Source of the DNA: Erwinia aphidicola
GTDB lineage: Bacteria > Pseudomonadota > Gammaproteobacteria > Enterobacterales > Enterobacteriaceae
Direction: 5' to 3'
DNA length: 64,000 nucleotides
Assembly (NCBI RefSeq): GCF_014773485.1
Contig: NZ_JACXBP010000004.1
Span: forward strand, 62,001-126,000
Position 1 is the first letter of the stretch. Each line of letters begins with the position of its first letter. A model generated the notes under the pieces. It made no database searches. It had not been told where the DNA came from and saw only the letters and a list, made by a program, of their open reading frames with translations. Shown here piece after piece: positions 6,564 to 54,214 of the stretch. The position numbers were made by a program, and so were the translations under genes.

Positions 6564-7289
6564 TCAGAGTCTGAACTCTTCACCCAAATAGACGCGCTTA
6601 ACTTGCTCATCGGCCAGGATCGCTTCCGGGGTGCCATGGGCGATCAGATGCCCCTGGCTGACGATATAGGCTCGTTCGCAGACTGCCAGCGTTTCGCGTA
6701 CGTTATGGTCGGTGATCAACACGCCCAGACCGCTGTCACGCAGGTGCTCAATAATCTTTTTAATATCAATGACGGAGATCGGGTCAACACCGGCAAAGGG
6801 CTCATCCAGCAGGATAAATTTCGGGTTAGCGGCCAGCGCGCGGGCAATCTCGACGCGGCGGCGTTCACCACCGGAAAGCGCCTGACCCAGGCTGTCGCGC
6901 AGGTGCTCAATGTGGAACTCGGCCAGCAGTTCATTCGCGCGGTCGTCGCGCTGCTCGCTGGTCAGGTCATCACGGATCTGCAGGACGGCCATCAGGTTGT
7001 CGTAAACGCTCAGACGACGGAAGATGGAGGCTTCCTGAGGCAGGTAGCCAATACCACGACGCGCACGGGCATGCAGTGGCAGAATACTGATGTCTTCATC
7101 GTCGATCACGATACGGCCCGCATCACGCGGCACAATCCCAACCACCATGTAGAAGGTGGTGGTTTTACCTGCACCGTTCGGGCCCAGCAGGCCGACGATT
7201 TCGCCGGATTTAACTTCCAGGCTGACATCTTCAACCACGCGACGGCCTTTGTAGGCCTTCGCCAGGTTTTCCGCAATTAAGGTTGCCAT
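6564..7289 (-). CDS. lptB: LPS export ABC transporter ATPase LptB
   Basis: This 241-residue ATPase has Walker A GPNGAGKT (36-43), signature [15 protein letters not shown] and Walker [14 protein letters not shown]. As a homodimer with LptFG in the inner membrane it powers extraction of lipopolysaccharide, which is handed to LptC and then LptA. The start is five bases from the lptA stop. It is part of the kdsD-kdsC-lptC-lptA-lptB operon. All motifs are intact and the length is typical. Confidence 0.98.
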
Positions 7290-7294
7290 GTTAG

Positions 7295-7843
7295 TTAGTT
7301 ACTCTTTTTCTGACCGTTTGACTGAGTGCCTTTATCCTGCAACTGCGACGGCACTAACACGGTGGTGACGCGTTTGCCGGTGCTGCCAAAGGCCTGCATT
7401 TTTTGCTCTTTGACCAGATAGGTGATTTTGTCACCTTTCACGTTGCTGTCGAGCTGTTCCAGATAAGCGTTGCCGGTCAGTTCGACCAGGTCTTTTGCGA
7501 GCTCGTAATGCATTTTCTGGGCGTGGCCCTGCACCGGCTTGCCGTTATCCTGCATCTGGTAGAAAGTTGCAGGATTACCATAGGCATCAACAATGGTTTT
7601 ATTGCTGTCGCCGCCCGGACGGGTCACCACCACTTTATCCGCGGTGATTTTGATCGAACCCTGGGTGACGATAACTTTGCCGGTAAAGGTAGCCACGTTG
7701 CCCTGCATATCCAGCGCCTGGTTTTCTGAATCGACGTTAACCGGTTTCTCGGAGTCGCCGGTCAGTGCCAGAGCGGGCAGGCTGGCGGCAAGCAGCAGTG
7801 ATGCCGTCAGAAGTTTAAGGCTGTTGTTCATTTTGAATTTCAT
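7295..7843 (-). CDS. lptA: Periplasmic LPS transport protein LptA
   Basis: From ATG 7843 this gives 182 residues with a signal peptide ([11 protein letters not shown]..., cleavage expected after LALA) and an OstA-type beta-jellyroll domain (about 30-150). I chose this start, not the longer frame from 7864, because MKFK matches the E. coli N-terminus. It also keeps the E. coli arrangement in which lptA begins inside the lptC 3' end, with an overlap of 29 bases. LptA bridges LptC to LptD across the periplasm. The C-terminal tail is polar and Lys/Gln-rich. Confidence 0.95.
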
Positions 7844-10953: not shown

Positions 10954-11181
10954 GAAGTGTCCTTTGGATCGGGTATAATCGTTGGTTACCGTTTGCTTTA
11001 AAGAGTTAAGGCAAAGAAAATTTAATGGCTGTGATTTTGACGGTCTGCGAGTGAAAAGTAAAACTTATGCCAGCTTTAGCTACGTTATTGCGGTAAGTTT
11101 CTGTAAAAGTGTCCGGTCCGATAGGTAATACGTTACCATTGGGGGTAAATTTAACGCCTGAGAATAAGGAATGAGGTAACT

Positions 11182-11994
11182 ATGAGCCAGACGGAGACGA
11201 ATTTGGTGGATGTGCGGGGCGTGAGTTTTTCCCGTGGCAACCGGCCGATTTTCGATAACATCTCGCTTACGGTGCCCAAAGGGAAGGTCACCGCGATAAT
11301 GGGCCCTTCCGGCATAGGCAAAACCACTTTACTGCGTTTAATCGGCGGGCAGATCCCTCCGGACAGCGGTGAAATCTGGTTTAACGGCGAAAATATTCCC
11401 ACGCTGTCGCGCTCACGCCTGTATGAGGCGCGTAAAAAAATGAGCATGCTGTTCCAGTCAGGGGCGTTATTCACCGATCTTAGCGCGTTTGACAACGTGG
11501 CATGGCCGCTGCGTGAACATACCCAGCTGCCAAAAGCGCTGCTGCATAGCACTGTGATGATGAAGCTAGAAGCGGTGGGCCTGCGCGGTGCCGCCAATCT
11601 TAAGCCTTCTGAACTTTCCGGCGGGATGGCGCGCCGTGCGGCACTGGCGCGAGCAATCGCGCTGGAGCCAGATTTGATCATGTTTGACGAACCCTTTGTC
11701 GGCCAGGATCCCATCACCATGGGCGTGCTGGTGAAGCTGATCGACGAACTGAACCACTCGCTGGGCGTCACCTGTATCGTGGTATCGCACGATGTGCCTG
11801 AGGTGCTGAGCATTGCCGATTACGCTTATATTATCGCGGATCAGAAAGTGATCGCTCAGGGGACAGCCCCTGAACTGCGTGATAACGAAGATGCCCGCGT
11901 GCGTCAGTTTATTGACGGCATTGCTGATGGCCCGGTACCTTTCCGTTTCCCGGCAGGGGATTACCTGCAAGATTTAGTCGGCTCAGGGAGTTAA
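11182..11994 (+). CDS. mlaF: Phospholipid ABC transporter ATP-binding protein MlaF
   Basis: This 270-residue ATPase has Walker A GPSGIGKT, signature [15 protein letters not shown] and Walker [14 protein letters not shown]. It powers the MlaFEDB complex that moves phospholipids between the inner membrane and the periplasmic carrier MlaC, maintaining outer-membrane lipid asymmetry. It begins the mlaFEDCB operon, and mlaE follows after seven bases. A good ribosome site (AAGGAATGAGG) precedes the ATG. Confidence 0.98.
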
Positions 11995-48686: not shown

Positions 48687-49697
48687 CTACAGCGAGTTAC
48701 GCGCCTGCATCGCCAGCTCGAAAGAGTAGAGCCGCGCCTGGCTGTCAAAGATCTGGCCATTCACCATAATCTCATCCGCCTGCGTTTCGCGCATCAGCGC
48801 CGCAAGGCCGTGACGTACCTTCTCTTTATCACCAACCACCGACATGCTCAATGCCTGCTGAACGCCATACTGTTCGGACGGCGACCACAGGTTATCCATG
48901 TTTTCTACCGGAGCCGGTAGCGGGCCGGGTTTGCCGCGGCGCAGATTGATGAACTGCTGCTGCATGGAGGTAAACAGGAAGCGCGCATCACGCTCGCTGT
49001 CGGCCGCTACCACGTTGACGCATACCATGGCATACGGTTTAGCCAGCCGTTCTGACGGCTTGAAGTTCTCGCGGTAGAGGTGCAGCGCCTGCATCAGCAT
49101 TTCAGGAGCAAAGTGGGAGGCAAAGGCAAACGGCAGCCCCATCTGAGCCGAGAGCTGCGCGCTATACAGGCTGGAGCCGAGCAGCCAGACCGGAATTTTC
49201 AGTCCGGTACCGGGAACGGGCTGCACCGGCGGCGCGGGCTCGTCTTCGTGCGCATCGAACCAGCGGATCAGCTCAGCGACATCGGCCGGAAAATTGTCGA
49301 CGTGGCCGGCCATATGGCGGCGCAGGGCCATCATGGTGCGCTGGTCTGAACCCGGCGCACGGCCAAGCCCCAGATCGATACGGCCGGGATAGAGCGACTC
49401 CAGCGTGCCGAACTGCTCGGCAATCACCAGCGGCGCATGGTTGGGCAGCATCACGCCGCCAGAGCCTAAGCGCAGCGTGTCGGTATTGGCCGCCAGATAA
49501 CCGATCAGTACCGAGGTGGCGGCGCTGGCGATCCCGGTCATATTATGGTGTTCGGCCAGCCAGTAGCGGTGAAAACCGAGTTTCTCTGACTGCTGTGCCA
49601 GCGCGAGTGAAGCGTGGAAGGCATCGCGAGGAGAACGTCCGTGCGGGATCGGGGCAAGGTCGAGTACCGACAACGGTACATTTTTCTTATCAGGCAT
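48687..49697 (-). CDS. yhbW: Luciferase-like monooxygenase family protein YhbW
   Basis: This 336-residue bacterial luciferase-like (LLM) flavin-dependent protein has the N-terminal [19 protein letters not shown]. The central segments LGRAPGSD and [26 protein letters not shown] are typical of the MsnO8/YhbW subgroup. The E. coli protein is 335 residues and its substrate is unknown. In E. coli mtr lies between yhbW and deaD; here it is absent. Confidence 0.92.
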
Positions 49698-49775: not shown

Positions 49776-49986
49776 GTCCGTTCGCAGCACTTTTGCTAAA
49801 ACGTTCGGCGATTAATTAGGCTGCTAGTTAAATAAAGTATTACCTAACTGCCAGCATAATTAAACCGCATTATTTACTCGGTTTCCCTCCCCCGGCCGCG
49901 CCGCAAAGTGGTTAAACAACAAAAATCGCCACCGGCGAGCGAGTATATTGCTGATAACCTGGACTTTCTTTGCGAAGGATATTGCA

Positions 49987-50040
49987 ATGCTTTGCCTCAG
50001 TAACGCCACTAAGCGACTGATTTCAGGGGCTTTTCGATGA
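49987..50040 (+). CDS. Putative 17-residue leader peptide coupled to the MFP gene
   Basis: ATG 49987, preceded by GAAGGATATTGCA, opens a 17-codon frame (MLCLSNATKRLISGAFR). Its TGA overlaps the ATG of the next gene (ATGA). The peptide has no runs of a single amino acid that would suggest classical attenuation. The overlap suggests translational coupling. I do not recognise it, and a chance frame is possible. Confidence 0.4.
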   Translation: MLCLSNATKRLISGAFR

Positions 50041-51008
50041 AAAAAAGAGCCTTTTTTACCCTGCTAATTATCATTTCAGGCATCGCTCTGGCCGTCCTTA
50101 TCCGCGCGCATAATCACGACCTGCTGTTGCAGGGAGAAGTCGATGCCACCGAAGTGATCGTCTCCTCAAAAGCGAAAGGGCGCGTGGTGGAGAAGCGGGT
50201 ACGGCGCGGCGACGATGTCAGCGCCGGGCAGTCTCTCATCGTGCTGGATGCCCCCGAACTGATTGCCCAGCTTAAGGCTGCCGAAGCGGCGCGTGACCAG
50301 GCGCAGGCGACGTTAGACCTCTCTCTGAACGGCACCCGTGAAGAAACGGTTCGCAACCTGAAAGCCTTGCTGCAACAGGCTCAGGCGACCTGGCGTGATG
50401 CCCAGTCCACCTGGCAGCGCGATCTGAGCGTGGCGCAGAAGGGCTATATCTCCGCCGAACAGCTGGATAATGCCCGCCAGGCGCGCGACGGTGCCTGGCA
50501 GCAGGTGCAGGCGGCGCGGGCTAATCTCGATCAGGGGGTAAATGGCGATCGCATCGAGCAGCGTGAAGCCTATCTGGCACAGCTGCACCAGGCAGAGCAG
50601 AACCTGCTGGAGATTAAAGCCCAGAGCGATGAACTGGTGGTGCATGCCCCGGTAGCGGGGGAGGTCGGGCCAATCCCGGCTGAGCGCGGGGAATTACTTA
50701 ATGCAGGCAGCCCGCTGCTGACGCTGATCGAGCTGCCCACCGCCTGGTTCACGTTTAATCTGCGCGAGGACATTCTCGCTCACGTGCGCAAGGGCGATAA
50801 AATACGCATTCGCGTCCCGGCGCTGAATAATCGGGTGATCGAGGCGGAGGTGCGCTATATCGCACCGCTCGGCGACTACGCGACCAAACGCGCCACGCGC
50901 GCCACCGGGGATTTTGACCTCAAAACCTTTGAGGTGCGGCTTTACCCACTCACGCCGGTTGAAGGCCTGCGTCAGGGAATGAGTGCCCTGTGGTCTTGGC
51001 AGACGTAA
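50037..51008 (+). CDS. HlyD-family membrane fusion protein
   Basis: This 323-residue periplasmic adaptor has one N-terminal transmembrane helix (about 5-23), a split lipoyl domain (GRVVEKRVRRGDDVSAGQSL and later LVVHAPVAGEV), a coiled-coil hairpin between them (about 75-205) and a beta-barrel domain. It is similar in build to YhiI/YbhG of E. coli. It should link an inner-membrane exporter to TolC. An AGGGG lies eight bases before the ATG. The following gene overlaps its 3' end by 19 bases. Confidence 0.9.
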   Translation: MKKRAFFTLLIIISGIALAVLIRAHNHDLLLQGEVDATEVIVSSKAKGRVVEKRVRRGDDVSAGQSLIVLDAPELIAQLKAAEAARDQAQATLDLSLNGTREETVRNLKALLQQAQATWRDAQSTWQRDLSVAQKGYISAEQLDNARQARDGAWQQVQAARANLDQGVNGDRIEQREAYLAQLHQAEQNLLEIKAQSDELVVHAPVAGEVGPIPAERGELLNAGSPLLTLIELPTAWFTFNLREDILAHVRKGDKIRIRVPALNNRVIEAEVRYIAPLGDYATKRATRATGDFDLKTFEVRLYPLTPVEGLRQGMSALWSWQT

Positions 51009-52144
51009 AAGACGGGCTGTGGGCATTTGGCCATGCCTTCAGTCGTGAAGTCCGCGTTGCCTGGCGTAAACCAGTGTTCCACTGGCTGGGCTGGTGTTTT
51101 CCGCTGCTGCTGTTCGCCCTGATTGCCAGCGATTTCTCCGAGGGATCGCTGATGGATCTGCCGGTGGCGGCGGTCGATCAGGATCACAGCACGCTATCGC
51201 GCACGCTGATACGCAATCTGAATGCAGGCTCGCATGCCGATGTCAGCCAGGATGCCGGCGGTGAGCCGCAAGCGCTGGAGAAATTACGCCAGGCACAGGC
51301 ATATGCTGTGCTGTTGATCCCGCCATTTTTTGAAGCCGATACGCTGGCGGGTCGTCAGCCGCGCGTCACGCTCTACTACAACGCGCTGTTTTATGGCGCG
51401 GGTTTTTACTCGACGCAGGATTTCGCCGGGCTGGTCAGTACGCTGAATGCGCAGTATCAGCCGGTGCTGGCGGCGGCCACCGGGCGGGCAATGCCAGCGC
51501 TACCCCACGCAACGCTGGCTTATGACAGCCTGTTTAACGCCAGCGGCAGCTATATCTACTATCAGCAGTTCGCCGCCAGTATTCATATGGTGCAGCTGTT
51601 CGCCGTCACCTGCATGATCTACGTGCTGGCGCGCAGCCGGCCGCTGATTTACCAACGGCATTTTGCTATGGCGCTGCTTGGTAAGCTGGCCCCTTACACG
51701 CTGTGCTACACGGTGCTGCTGGTGAGCGAAATCGCCCTGCTGGTCGGCGTATTCAGCGCGCGGGTGGTGGGAAACCCCTTCTATATTCTGTGCGTGGCTT
51801 TCTTCTACGTCATGGCGGCGCAAAGCCTCGGCATCCTGCTATTTAGCTTCACCGGGAGTGCGATCACCGCCTATATGATGATGGGGATTATGGTCAGCAT
51901 TGCCCTGACATTTTCCGGCACGGCAATGCCGGAGCTGTCGATGCCGTGGCCGGCTCAGCTGATCTCTAATCTGGAGCCGCTCACCCACGCGCTGTATGCC
52001 ATGTTTGATCTGTTCCTGCGCGACGTTCCGGGAAAACCGGTGGCCAGCGTCTGCCTGCTGCTGCTGGTCTATCCGCTGGCTGTGGCGCTGCTGGTGCGTA
52101 AACGCCTGTTCCGCCGTCTGGCAACGCCGGAGGAGATGCAGTGA
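50990..52144 (+). CDS. ABC-2 family transporter permease (first of pair)
   Basis: This 384-residue protein has an N-terminal helix (about 23-40), a large extracytoplasmic domain (about 45-215) and about five C-terminal helices, the ABC2_membrane_3 layout of YhhJ/YbhS. No Walker A or signature motif is present, so no ATPase is fused. The start is GTG 50990 inside the MFP gene; other in-frame starts are TTG codons nearby. The TGA overlaps the next start (GTGA). The export substrate cannot be inferred. Confidence 0.85.
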   Translation: MVLADVKDGLWAFGHAFSREVRVAWRKPVFHWLGWCFPLLLFALIASDFSEGSLMDLPVAAVDQDHSTLSRTLIRNLNAGSHADVSQDAGGEPQALEKLRQAQAYAVLLIPPFFEADTLAGRQPRVTLYYNALFYGAGFYSTQDFAGLVSTLNAQYQPVLAAATGRAMPALPHATLAYDSLFNASGSYIYYQQFAASIHMVQLFAVTCMIYVLARSRPLIYQRHFAMALLGKLAPYTLCYTVLLVSEIALLVGVFSARVVGNPFYILCVAFFYVMAAQSLGILLFSFTGSAITAYMMMGIMVSIALTFSGTAMPELSMPWPAQLISNLEPLTHALYAMFDLFLRDVPGKPVASVCLLLLVYPLAVALLVRKRLFRRLATPEEMQ

Positions 52145-53253
52145 GGCTGTGGTGGCAGGCCTTCACCACAACGCTCAGCGGGCTACTGCAAAAACCGATG
52201 TGGATGATGCTGCTCTGTTCGCTCTGCCTGATGAGTACGGTGTATCTCAATCACAGCGTCTGGGATCTGCCCGTCGCGGTGATCGATATGGACCACAGCC
52301 CGGCCAGCAGAATGCTGACTCGCCAGCTTGATGCTACGCCGAAAATCACCAATGTGGCCTACAGCAGCCTGCCGCAGGCGCTCAGCGACCTTGGCCTGCG
52401 CAAACTGTTTGCGGTGATTATTCTGCCGCAGGATATGGAACAGAAGATGTTGGCAGGGAAAGAGGTCACGCTGCCGGTCTACGGAGATGCCACCAACCGC
52501 CTGGCGAATGGTCAGATCCAGCAGGATGTCATGGCCGCCGGGCAGCAGGTTTTAGGGCGCTACAATCTCAAGCTGATGATGATGGCGGGTTTTAGCGAAC
52601 GGCAGGCTTCGGTGGTGCTGACGCCATTTATTGGCCAGGCCATCGATGTATTTAACCCGGGGATCAGCTTTGCAGCGATTGTCTTTCCCGGCCTGCTGGT
52701 GATGCTGCTGCAGCACTCGCTGCTGATTGCCGGCGTGCGCGTCAGCATGACGCTGCGCAGCCAGGGGCCCTTACCCCTGCCGGTGACGCTAGACACGCTC
52801 TCCGCGCTGATCCCCATCTGGCTGTTTCTTTCTATCGTGCTGTTTGCCCTGTGGCCATGGGTACTGGGCTATCGGCAAACGGCCAGCATCCCCGAGCTGC
52901 TGATGCTGACGTTCCCGTTCCAGCTGGCGGTGCTGGGCCTGGCGAAGCTGGTGACCGAGTGCCTGCGTGAGGTAGAGCGCATCTACTTTTCGCTGTCGTT
53001 TATTACCACCCCGGTCTACTACCTTTCCGGCACGCTGTGGCCGGTGCAGTCGATGCCAGACTGGGTACGCGGCATTTCGATGATGCTGCCCTCAACCTGG
53101 GGCACGCGGATGATTGCCGGGGTAAATCAGATGGGGCTGCCGCTTAGCGAAGTGAGTCAAGATGTGGTGATGCTGCTGATCATGGCGGTGGTCTATACGG
53201 TACTGGGGATGGTGGTCGGAAAGCTGCGCGACTACCTCGGTCGTCGCCATTGA
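52141..53253 (+). CDS. ABC-2 family transporter permease (second of pair)
   Basis: This 370-residue protein has the same layout as the gene before it: N-terminal helix (about 20-35), an extracytoplasmic domain and a C-terminal block of helices. The start is GTG 52141, overlapping the upstream stop by four bases. In the E. coli ybhGFSR cluster an ATPase gene lies between adaptor and permeases. Here neither the cluster nor its neighbours (yhbW, ubiV) supply one. A repeat pair follows the stop. Confidence 0.85.
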   Translation: MRLWWQAFTTTLSGLLQKPMWMMLLCSLCLMSTVYLNHSVWDLPVAVIDMDHSPASRMLTRQLDATPKITNVAYSSLPQALSDLGLRKLFAVIILPQDMEQKMLAGKEVTLPVYGDATNRLANGQIQQDVMAAGQQVLGRYNLKLMMMAGFSERQASVVLTPFIGQAIDVFNPGISFAAIVFPGLLVMLLQHSLLIAGVRVSMTLRSQGPLPLPVTLDTLSALIPIWLFLSIVLFALWPWVLGYRQTASIPELLMLTFPFQLAVLGLAKLVTECLREVERIYFSLSFITTPVYYLSGTLWPVQSMPDWVRGISMMLPSTWGTRMIAGVNQMGLPLSEVSQDVVMLLIMAVVYTVLGMVVGKLRDYLGRRH

Positions 53254-53335: not shown

Positions 53336-54214
53336 TTACTCCACCAACTCTAGCCCCGCCACCCGCTGCCAGTAGCCGTTGCAGTCGGCCGATCGCGCCA
53401 GGCTCAGCGGCTGCCTGCCGGTTTCATTGGCGCGAAAGCGCTCGATCATTGCCAGCGTGTCATCTCCCTGCGGCGACAGGCGCACAATATCCACCAGCCC
53501 CTGCATCGACAGCAGATCGTTACCCAGGTTGTAGCAGTAGCCGCTCATGGTCTGAATACCGTTCAGCACAAACACCGGCTGATCTTCCTGGGTGCGCACC
53601 TGGCGCCCGTGCGGGTAGTCAATACAGCATGTCTGGCACTCGTCCTTACTGCGGTTTTCAGCGCGGGCGCTAAAACAGCGGGCAGAGTACGCCAGTGGCA
53701 GATAGCCATAGCTCAGCACCTCGACTTCAAACTGGTGGCGGATCCCCAGTTCGTCGCACTGCACCAGCAGCTGCGCCAGCCAGTCTCGCGACAGCTCGAC
53801 CGGCATGCACCAGCGCATCATGCCCATTTTCAGCAGCAGCTGCAGCGTCACCGCGTTATAGATATTCAGCGCAGGACCGGCAACAAAGGGCACGCCCGCG
53901 TCACAGGCCAGGGTAACGGCGCCGACGTCGTTCGCCTCAATCAGAAACTCGCCGTTATCCACATAGCGCTTCAGCTCGGTTAACTCGGAAGGTGACTGCA
54001 CCAGCGCCAGGGTGCTGAGCACCACCTGCTTGCCAGCGGCGGCCAGATCTTTTGCCAGCGCCAGCCAGTCGGCTGCTTTAGTACTGCGGCGCTTGCTGCA
54101 TACCGATTCGCCAAGGTAGATAATCTCGGCCTCACTGTGCGCTGCGGCCTGGTAAAACGCCTGCAGCGTCTCTTTAGGCCAGTACCACAACACCGGCCCG
54201 AGGGAATATTTCAT
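53336..54214 (-). CDS. ubiV: Oxygen-independent ubiquinone hydroxylase subunit UbiV
   Basis: This 292-residue U32-family protein has the four cysteines known to bind the 4Fe-4S cluster at the same numbers as in E. coli: Cys39, Cys180, Cys193 and Cys197. With UbiU it hydroxylates the ubiquinone ring without oxygen. It lies nine bases downstream of ubiU. Formerly YhbV, once called a peptidase. Confidence 0.96.
   Translation of the reverse strand: MKYSLGPVLWYWPKETLQAFYQAAAHSEAEIIYLGESVCSKRRSTKAADWLALAKDLAAAGKQVVLSTLALVQSPSELTELKRYVDNGEFLIEANDVGAVTLACDAGVPFVAGPALNIYNAVTLQLLLKMGMMRWCMPVELSRDWLAQLLVQCDELGIRHQFEVEVLSYGYLPLAYSARCFSARAENRSKDECQTCCIDYPHGRQVRTQEDQPVFVLNGIQTMSGYCYNLGNDLLSMQGLVDIVRLSPQGDDTLAMIERFRANETGRQPLSLARSADCNGYWQRVAGLELVE

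Follow-up and report, generated by a model that had tools for sequence, protein, structure and literature searches.

How can genes that look like those of an ATP-binding cassette (ABC) exporter work when none of them encodes an ATPase? This question is raised by a cassette of Erwinia aphidicola that occupies positions 49987-53253 on the forward strand of the window, by which we mean the whole stretch of 64,000 nucleotides that was analysed (G000:C19:62001-126000). The cassette comprises a 17-codon open reading frame (ORF), a periplasmic adaptor and two ABC-2 permeases, coupled by overlaps. Our answer, which we consider probable although far from assured, is that the permeases are an ABC-2-fold heterodimer within a TolC-type exporter, that this exporter works independently of ATP, most likely by ion-gradient-coupled secondary transport, and that the short ORF is a coupling leader.

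Genes of the cassette

All genes of the cassette lie on the forward strand. The adaptor, a membrane-fusion protein of 323 residues with a Pfam match to HlyD_D23, is encoded at 50037..51008 and is followed by permease 1 (50990..52144, 384 residues) and permease 2 (52141..53253, 370 residues), both of which start with GTG and match ABC2_membrane_3 in Pfam. Re-derived overlaps were ATGA between leader and adaptor, 19 bases between adaptor and permease 1 and GTGA between the two permeases; the chain of four frames described in an earlier note on this DNA thus agreed with the sequence in all coordinates and overlaps. The best NCBIfam match of the adaptor was a HlyD-type secretion protein model. For both permeases it was RbbA, matched in its membrane half (within positions 547-903 of 909) and not in its ATPase half, far under the cut-off of that model, and nucleotide-binding models were absent from the family matches of either permease, in line with the earlier observation that they carry no ATPase motifs. 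The statement that no nucleotide-binding gene occurs in or beside the set was likewise borne out, since the sole nucleotide-binding ORFs found in the window, 6567-7298 on the reverse and 11155-11991 on the forward strand, are located about 38-43 kb from the cassette; an ORF antisense to 6567-7298 also scores as nucleotide-binding.

ATPase genes are absent from homologous operons

For the ATPase-less loci, hereafter the class, 179 records from Gammaproteobacteria, Alphaproteobacteria and Bacteroidota were fetched, of which 156 were distinct by permease 1. None of these 156 adaptor and permease loci contained a nucleotide-binding ORF inside the operon span, in a sample that is biased toward the class because the searches were seeded with class members, and in which some fetched stretches end early at contig ends. 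Since the homologous loci examined lack the gene, an ATPase deleted only in the present lineage does not account for the cassette.

Somewhere in the fetched stretch a nucleotide-binding ORF was seen in 9 of the 156 distinct loci, the nearest three at distances of 334, 419 and 775 bases. As partners of the permeases these nearby ATPases were rejected: the seven that were typed by their best NCBIfam match, leaving L166 and L205 outside the typing, agreed on no family. Their nearest families ranged over importers, a full exporter, a peptidase-type exporter and Uup: MetN-like (L127), GlnQ-like (L306), OppF (L144), of the 2-aminoethylphosphonate type (L071), MsbA-like (L336), Uup-like (L076) and a peptidase-type exporter (L298), and only OppF and the 2-aminoethylphosphonate type reached the curated cut-off.

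An initial set of 20 loci from the order contained 13 (6 from the genus and 7 distant ones) with no ATPase beside the permeases; the other 7, which were those with the lowest permease scores, had one. The E. coli ybhGFSR operon and an operon of Sphingopyxis contain the ATPase gene. The main independent check came from loci of intermediate similarity. A permease-2 profile was run against 398 genomes of the phylum, and 83 of them matched at E 1e-15; 38 scored at least 225 bits, and the best match in each of the other 45 was 132 bits or lower. From 20 of these 45 genomes 20 loci were chosen by score alone and not by their neighbours, and an ATPase ORF abutted the permease in 20/20.

The permeases form a separate clade and lack the docking-loop motif

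In a tree of 93 permeases, which were trimmed to the last 400 residues, with fused permeases halved at mid-length, the 75 ATPase-less and 18 ATPase-linked sequences separated without error at a Shimodaira-Hasegawa (SH) support of 1.0. When 21 intermediate permeases were added, all of them fell on the ATPase-linked side and the split was supported at 0.998. Within the ATPase-less part the two permeases formed separate groups, with SH values of 0.998 for the permease-2 but only 0.27 for the permease-1 group, and by eye the two groups branched alike. At four loci the permeases were fused into a single ORF (in Terrarubrum, on an Enterobacter plasmid and in two further genomes; L306, L307, L330, L334). 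Separate groups, similar branching and fusion are as expected of a heterodimer.

In ABC exporters, the coupling helix by which the membrane domain docks on the ATPase is located in the loop between the second and third transmembrane helices (TM2-TM3). For this loop the motif RE.E.G[TNSA] was defined on 10 ATPase-linked permeases (10/10) and then tested on others; an earlier, stricter expression had caught 3 of 11 ATPase-linked permeases and was loosened, and the truncated YbhR of L180 was dropped. The motif was present in 10/10 further ATPase-linked permeases (two each from L335, L046 and L053, one each from L049, L050, L054 and L057), whose loci all had confirmed ATPase domains, and in 20 of the 21 intermediate ones. 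Altogether it occurred in 40/41 ATPase-linked permeases (30/31 of those tested after its definition) and in none of 284 distinct class permeases, comprising 144 permease-1 and 140 permease-2 sequences. Eleven further class loci (L327-L334, L336-L338) lacked it as well. The count left out L055 (a broken frame with five stops), L052 and L048 (repeats of L079 and L081) and the YadH-like locus L064.

In the window the TM2-TM3 loop of permease 1 is shortened (residues 215-224, RSRPLIYQRH, 51632..51661) and, like that of permease 2 (residues 208-222, 52762..52806), carries no coupling-helix motif. Across the class most loop columns of permease 1 were lost (Gly in 4/38, Leu in 1/38, Pro in 1/38, Glu218 in 2/38 and Glu227 in 0/38), and so were those of permease 2 (Arg in 3/37, the first Glu in 1/37, Leu in 2/37 and Pro in 0/37), whereas residues outside the loop that are conserved in the ATPase-linked set were retained (in permease 1, N183 and P330 in 38/38 and G310 in 37/38). 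The resemblance to the YbhGFSR and YhiI-YhhJ exporters that had been pointed out earlier holds for the families involved; it does not make the cassette such a system with one gene missing, because its permeases belong to a separate clade without the docking-loop motif.

Predicted fold, adaptor signature and outer membrane partner

AlphaFold models of permease 1 and permease 2, with a mean predicted local distance difference test score (pLDDT) of 76.7 and 74.2, respectively, matched the membrane domains of ABCH, ABCG and ABCA exporters. Permease 1 aligned to 8z01_B with Z 21.9 over 353 residues at a root-mean-square deviation of 6.5, and permease 2 was matched by Foldseek only. Both permeases are accordingly predicted to adopt the ABC-2 (type V) membrane-domain fold; in a sequence search of the PDB no match fell below E 0.07.

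The C-terminal part of the adaptor sets the class apart as well. The signature AT..[AS]T...D..[TS]F, which in the window corresponds to adaptor residues 282-298 (ATKRATRATGDFDLKTF, 50880..50930), was found in 124 of 142 distinct class adaptors and in 0/9 ATPase-linked ones; it was composed after inspection of the class, and 18 of the 142 members lack it. A class-specific signature of this kind suggests that adaptor and permeases changed together. At the hairpin tip the window adaptor has the motif R-x3-L/V-x6-S, present as R128, V132 and S139, the spacing of which we take to be that of a TolC-docking motif. R128 was invariant (17/17 rows), position 132 was Leu, Val or Ile in 16 rows and Met in one, and S139 was found in 12.

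The source genome contains 18 OEP matches in 9 ORFs of the TolC type. An outer-membrane factor (OMF) ORF occurred in the fetched stretch of 27 of the 156 distinct loci, none of them that of the window, and several distant cassettes were preceded by a TolC-family gene. The outer-membrane channel of the system would thus be of the TolC type and encoded elsewhere in the genome.

What drives transport

Taken together, we picture the two ABC-2-fold permeases as pairing in the inner membrane as a heterodimer, with the HlyD-type adaptor spanning the periplasm towards the TolC-type channel, so that the assembly would export its substrate. The heterodimer would descend from ABC exporters and would permanently have lost both the ATPase subunit and the docking loop, and transport would therefore be ATP-independent. 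An ion gradient is the most likely driving force of such secondary transport. This idea is supported by LmrA and MsbA, ABC exporters that, according to reports cited in the portion of PMC7190983 considered here, can use the proton-motive force, and by class-specific polar residues conserved in permease 2 (Y27, Y31, Y35, Q192, E279, N329 and Q330). Among the latter, Glu279 (52975..52977), at the start of TM5, is a candidate coupling residue and was found in 30 of the 37 permease-2 sequences on the ATPase-less side compared with 0 of 18 ATPase-linked ones.

Several observations weigh against this picture. No acidic membrane residue, Glu279 included, is invariant across the clade. The loss of loop residues is incomplete: in permease 1 some sequences still have Arg215 (15/38) and Glu216 (22/38), and in permease 2 the same is true of the second Glu (14/37) and of the Gly (9/37). 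The YadH-like permease of the source genome, a remote relative with a neighbouring ATPase, and one of the 21 intermediate ATPase-linked permeases do not have RE.E.G[TNSA] either, and the motif is hence not universal among ATP-driven ABC-2 permeases. Furthermore, an operon of Helicobacter anseris homologous to the ATPase-less HP1489-HP1486 operon of H. pylori contains a predicted ABC ATPase gene, as stated in the portion of the study by Gibson et al. considered here (PMC9570263), which counts against a universal rule.

The earlier note had left the choice between an ATPase borrowed from another locus and another mode of working, and proposed a search for an orphan ATPase of the RbbA/YbhF type. 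No such orphan was among the matches listed for the source genome. This genome gave 148 ABC ATPase domain matches, and only three matches to ABC2_membrane_3: the two of the cassette and one beside an ATPase; this pair of neighbours we take to be YadG-like and YadH-like. For the ATPase subfamily a profile was made from six sequences of the type found in ATPase-linked relatives, the YadG-like protein of the source genome among them, and scoring covered 58 candidate places in each genome, with weak matches dropped from the list. The only high scorer of the source genome was this YadG-like protein (430 bits), whose own permease is next door. One YadG-like protein (406-431 bits) was present in each of the 37 genus genomes, 29 of which have no operon. 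No second ATPase of the subfamily above 200 bits was among the matches listed for the eight operon-bearing genus genomes, and the seven genus genomes with second members were all operon-less.

Energy might instead come from a shared ATPase, encoded away from the cassette and serving a second transporter as well, for instance the YadG-like protein or another of the many ABC ATPases of the genome; in our opinion this is unlikely, albeit deserving of serious consideration. The supply of candidates speaks for it, as does the H. pylori system, whose ATPase is presumed by Gibson et al. to be unlinked (PMC9570263, in the portion considered). It is made less likely, whether the shared partner is YadG-like or unrelated, by the fact that both permeases lack the loop motif that would meet an ATPase throughout the clade, and the occurrence of the YadG-like gene does not follow that of the operon. 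Because the clade lacks this docking-loop motif, another mode of working is favoured over a borrowed ATPase.

A passive or structural role appears rather improbable to us. Here the complex would be a conduit or scaffold linking the inner membrane with TolC; the substrate would move down its own gradient or be pushed by its synthesis. The want of a clade-wide invariant charged membrane residue would fit such a role, and the part of the work of Gibson et al. considered here lists a structural contribution to flagellum stability among the possibilities for H. pylori (PMC9570263). However, the permease core and the polar residues of permease 2 are strongly conserved, which suggests a working transport path. 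Finally, that the cassette is an ordinary YbhGFSR-like exporter which recently lost its ATPase gene in this lineage, as the Pfam families shared with ATPase-linked relatives and the HlyD-type NCBIfam match of the adaptor might suggest, is refuted because distant relatives share the absence of the gene and form a cleanly separated clade. In addition, all 10 operon-less genus genomes that were tested, out of 29, have the flanking genes side by side with no adaptor or permease remnant between them. We give this reading almost no credence.

A short leader ORF precedes the adaptor gene

The 17-codon ORF (49987..50040; ATG at 49987, TGA at 50038-50040) is preceded by a ribosome-binding site, AAGGA (49975..49979), located in a block at about -62 to -47 that is conserved in 7 genus loci. 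An ATG with an AAGGA-like site at exactly -50 and a stop overlapping the adaptor start were found in 7/7 genus loci and in the second genome of the species. The encoded amino acids were not kept: variability was equal for first, second and third codon positions (entropy 1.08, 1.12 and 1.06), and amino-acid substitutions distinguish the leader peptide of the source genome from that of the second genome of the species. Outside the genus such an ORF was seen in 6 of 73 deduplicated loci. A more widely conserved leader was not borne out: over all 80 deduplicated loci, 13, of which 7 belong to the genus itself, had a leader with a ribosome-binding site, compared with a mean of 1.7 (maximum 6) in 100 shuffles; without the ribosome-binding-site condition the count was 28/80, compared with 13.3 (maximum 22) in shuffles.

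The position of the leader is thus kept within the genus and its amino acids are not, which points to a translational-coupling leader rather than to an independently functional peptide. Of the suggestion that the tiny ORF is a regulatory or coupling peptide, the coupling part survives and the regulatory part is not supported; the ORF itself is present in all genus loci examined and mostly absent elsewhere. The ribosome-binding site of the adaptor, AGGGG (50025..50029), lies within the leader ORF in an arm of a predicted hairpin, and single-sequence folding placed the corresponding region into hairpins in several genus sequences, that of the window included. A ribosome on the leader may therefore open the hairpin and in this way couple translation of the adaptor to that of the leader. 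Neither a sigma-70-type promoter nor an Rfam match was found at the locus.

Distribution and genomic setting

Permease-1 orthologues with 75-80% identity were present in 6 of 35 genus mates, and the adaptor was found in 87 of 392 family genomes and in 40 of 154 genera (E 1e-60 or better), so these genes are more than chance ORFs. By the adaptor profile the system occurs in 8 of the 37 genus genomes, two of which, the source genome included, belong to the species. Across the phylum, 27 of 299 sampled genomes had the adaptor (E 1e-50). Carriers among the best 80 loci include Serratia, Rahnella, Erwinia, Pantoea coffeiphila, Yersinia pekkanenii, Proteus, Providencia, Photorhabdus, Xenorhabdus, Gilliamella and Pseudomonas. 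More distant cassettes were seen in Acinetobacter, Sphingobium, Agrobacterium, Paracoccus, Rhizobium, Bacteroides, Prevotella and Phocaeicola; a blastn search of the operon gave no E. coli match.

We tentatively propose, as a wider generalization that is plausible but falls short of being probable, that these cassettes represent a class that crosses phyla, i.e. a stand-alone, ion-driven and obligate heterodimer of permease 1 and permease 2 with its own type of adaptor, in which a single early loss removed both ATPase and loop, neither of which reappeared in the sampled loci. If the ATP-independent reading is true, many proteins annotated as 'ABC transporter permease' are not ATP-driven, in Enterobacterales (Serratia, Rahnella, Proteus, Providencia, Photorhabdus and others) as well as in some Pseudomonas, Acinetobacter, Rhizobiaceae and Bacteroidota. 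The class would then be a natural experiment on an ABC membrane domain running without its motor, and the loop motif and the adaptor signature would be simple sequence tests that separate two kinds of exporters.

The cassette is bounded upstream by a gene at 48687..49697 and downstream by one at 53336..54214, both on the reverse strand, which are presumably yhbW-like and U32-peptidase-like, respectively. The operon sits between these two genes in the window and in 5 of 6 fetched genus loci; in the sixth, L069, the genes seen were limited to yhbW and deaD, at distances of about 3 kb and more.

Some loci showed peculiarities. The fused permease ORFs (L306, L307, L330, L334) span about 770-850 codons from stop to stop; in L306, L307 and L330 a second adaptor gene follows, and L334, a locus of the Enterobacter plasmid pECL_A, is surrounded by transposases. 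In the alphaproteobacteria Paracoccus yeei and Terrarubrum flagellatum (L328, L330) the ATPase-less cassettes adjoin catalase and peroxidase genes, possibly a hint at substrate or stress. Split ORFs were observed for permease 2 and adaptor (L159), adaptor (L178) and permease 2 (L259, L329), reflecting decay or sequencing errors. The Proteus mirabilis records NZ_OL790811.1 and NZ_OL790812.1, of 4.1 Mb each, are filed as plasmids although their size is chromosome-like. In the source assembly (G000) ATPase matches with identical scores occurred twice, on C11/C22 and C21/C22; together with a listed contamination of 9.67, this looks like a duplicated stretch or a mixed assembly.

Comparison with known systems

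Searches of the open-licence PMC literature listed no paper whose title or abstract presents an ATP-independent class of ABC-2 transporters; subscription papers and preprints were outside this scope. The closest known system, by gene content, is HP1489-HP1486 of H. pylori, for which we refer to the portion of PMC9570263 considered here. Like the window it has one adaptor and two ABC-2 permeases with no ATPase gene at the locus; unlike the window it has the gene of the outer-membrane channel inside the operon. Deletion mutants showed reduced motility and aberrant flagellar motors. A blastp search of the H. pylori genome by Gibson et al. yielded no clear ATPase candidate, and HP0853 was under test as the presumed unlinked ATPase. 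If ATP independence is true for the present cassette, it bears on the missing ATPase of this flagellum-stability system.

The ABCH, ABCG and ABCA transporters (8z01, 8i3d, 7w01) share the membrane-domain fold with the window permeases, but only the membrane part of these chains was matched (8z01_B residues 389-788), and the window permeases have no nucleotide-binding domain. YhiI-RbbA-YhhJ of E. coli likewise combines an adaptor with ABC-2 membrane domains, and the membrane half of its RbbA is the model nearest to both permeases, yet its ATPase domains are fused within RbbA. RbbA-like loci (L078, L046, L053) had RE-x-E-x-G loops and an ATPase domain and fell on the ATPase-linked side of the tree, from which E. 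coli RbbA and YhhJ themselves were left out.

The E. coli system YbhG-YbhF-YbhS-YbhR (L180; PMC7190983, in the portion considered) also consists of a HlyD-type adaptor and two ABC-2 permeases, and the class profiles match YbhG and YbhS, the two proteins covered by the comparison, as YbhR is truncated at the end of the stretch and was left out. In contrast to the window it has the ATPase YbhF, YbhS carries the loop REWERGT and lies across the tree, and the C-terminus of YbhG has no AT-x-RAT...D..TF signature of the class adaptors. Measured against an ATP-driven ABC exporter of the DRA type (YbhGFSR/RbbA type), the cassette thus shares the adaptor and permease families and differs in the ATPase gene, the loop motif and the grouping in the tree.

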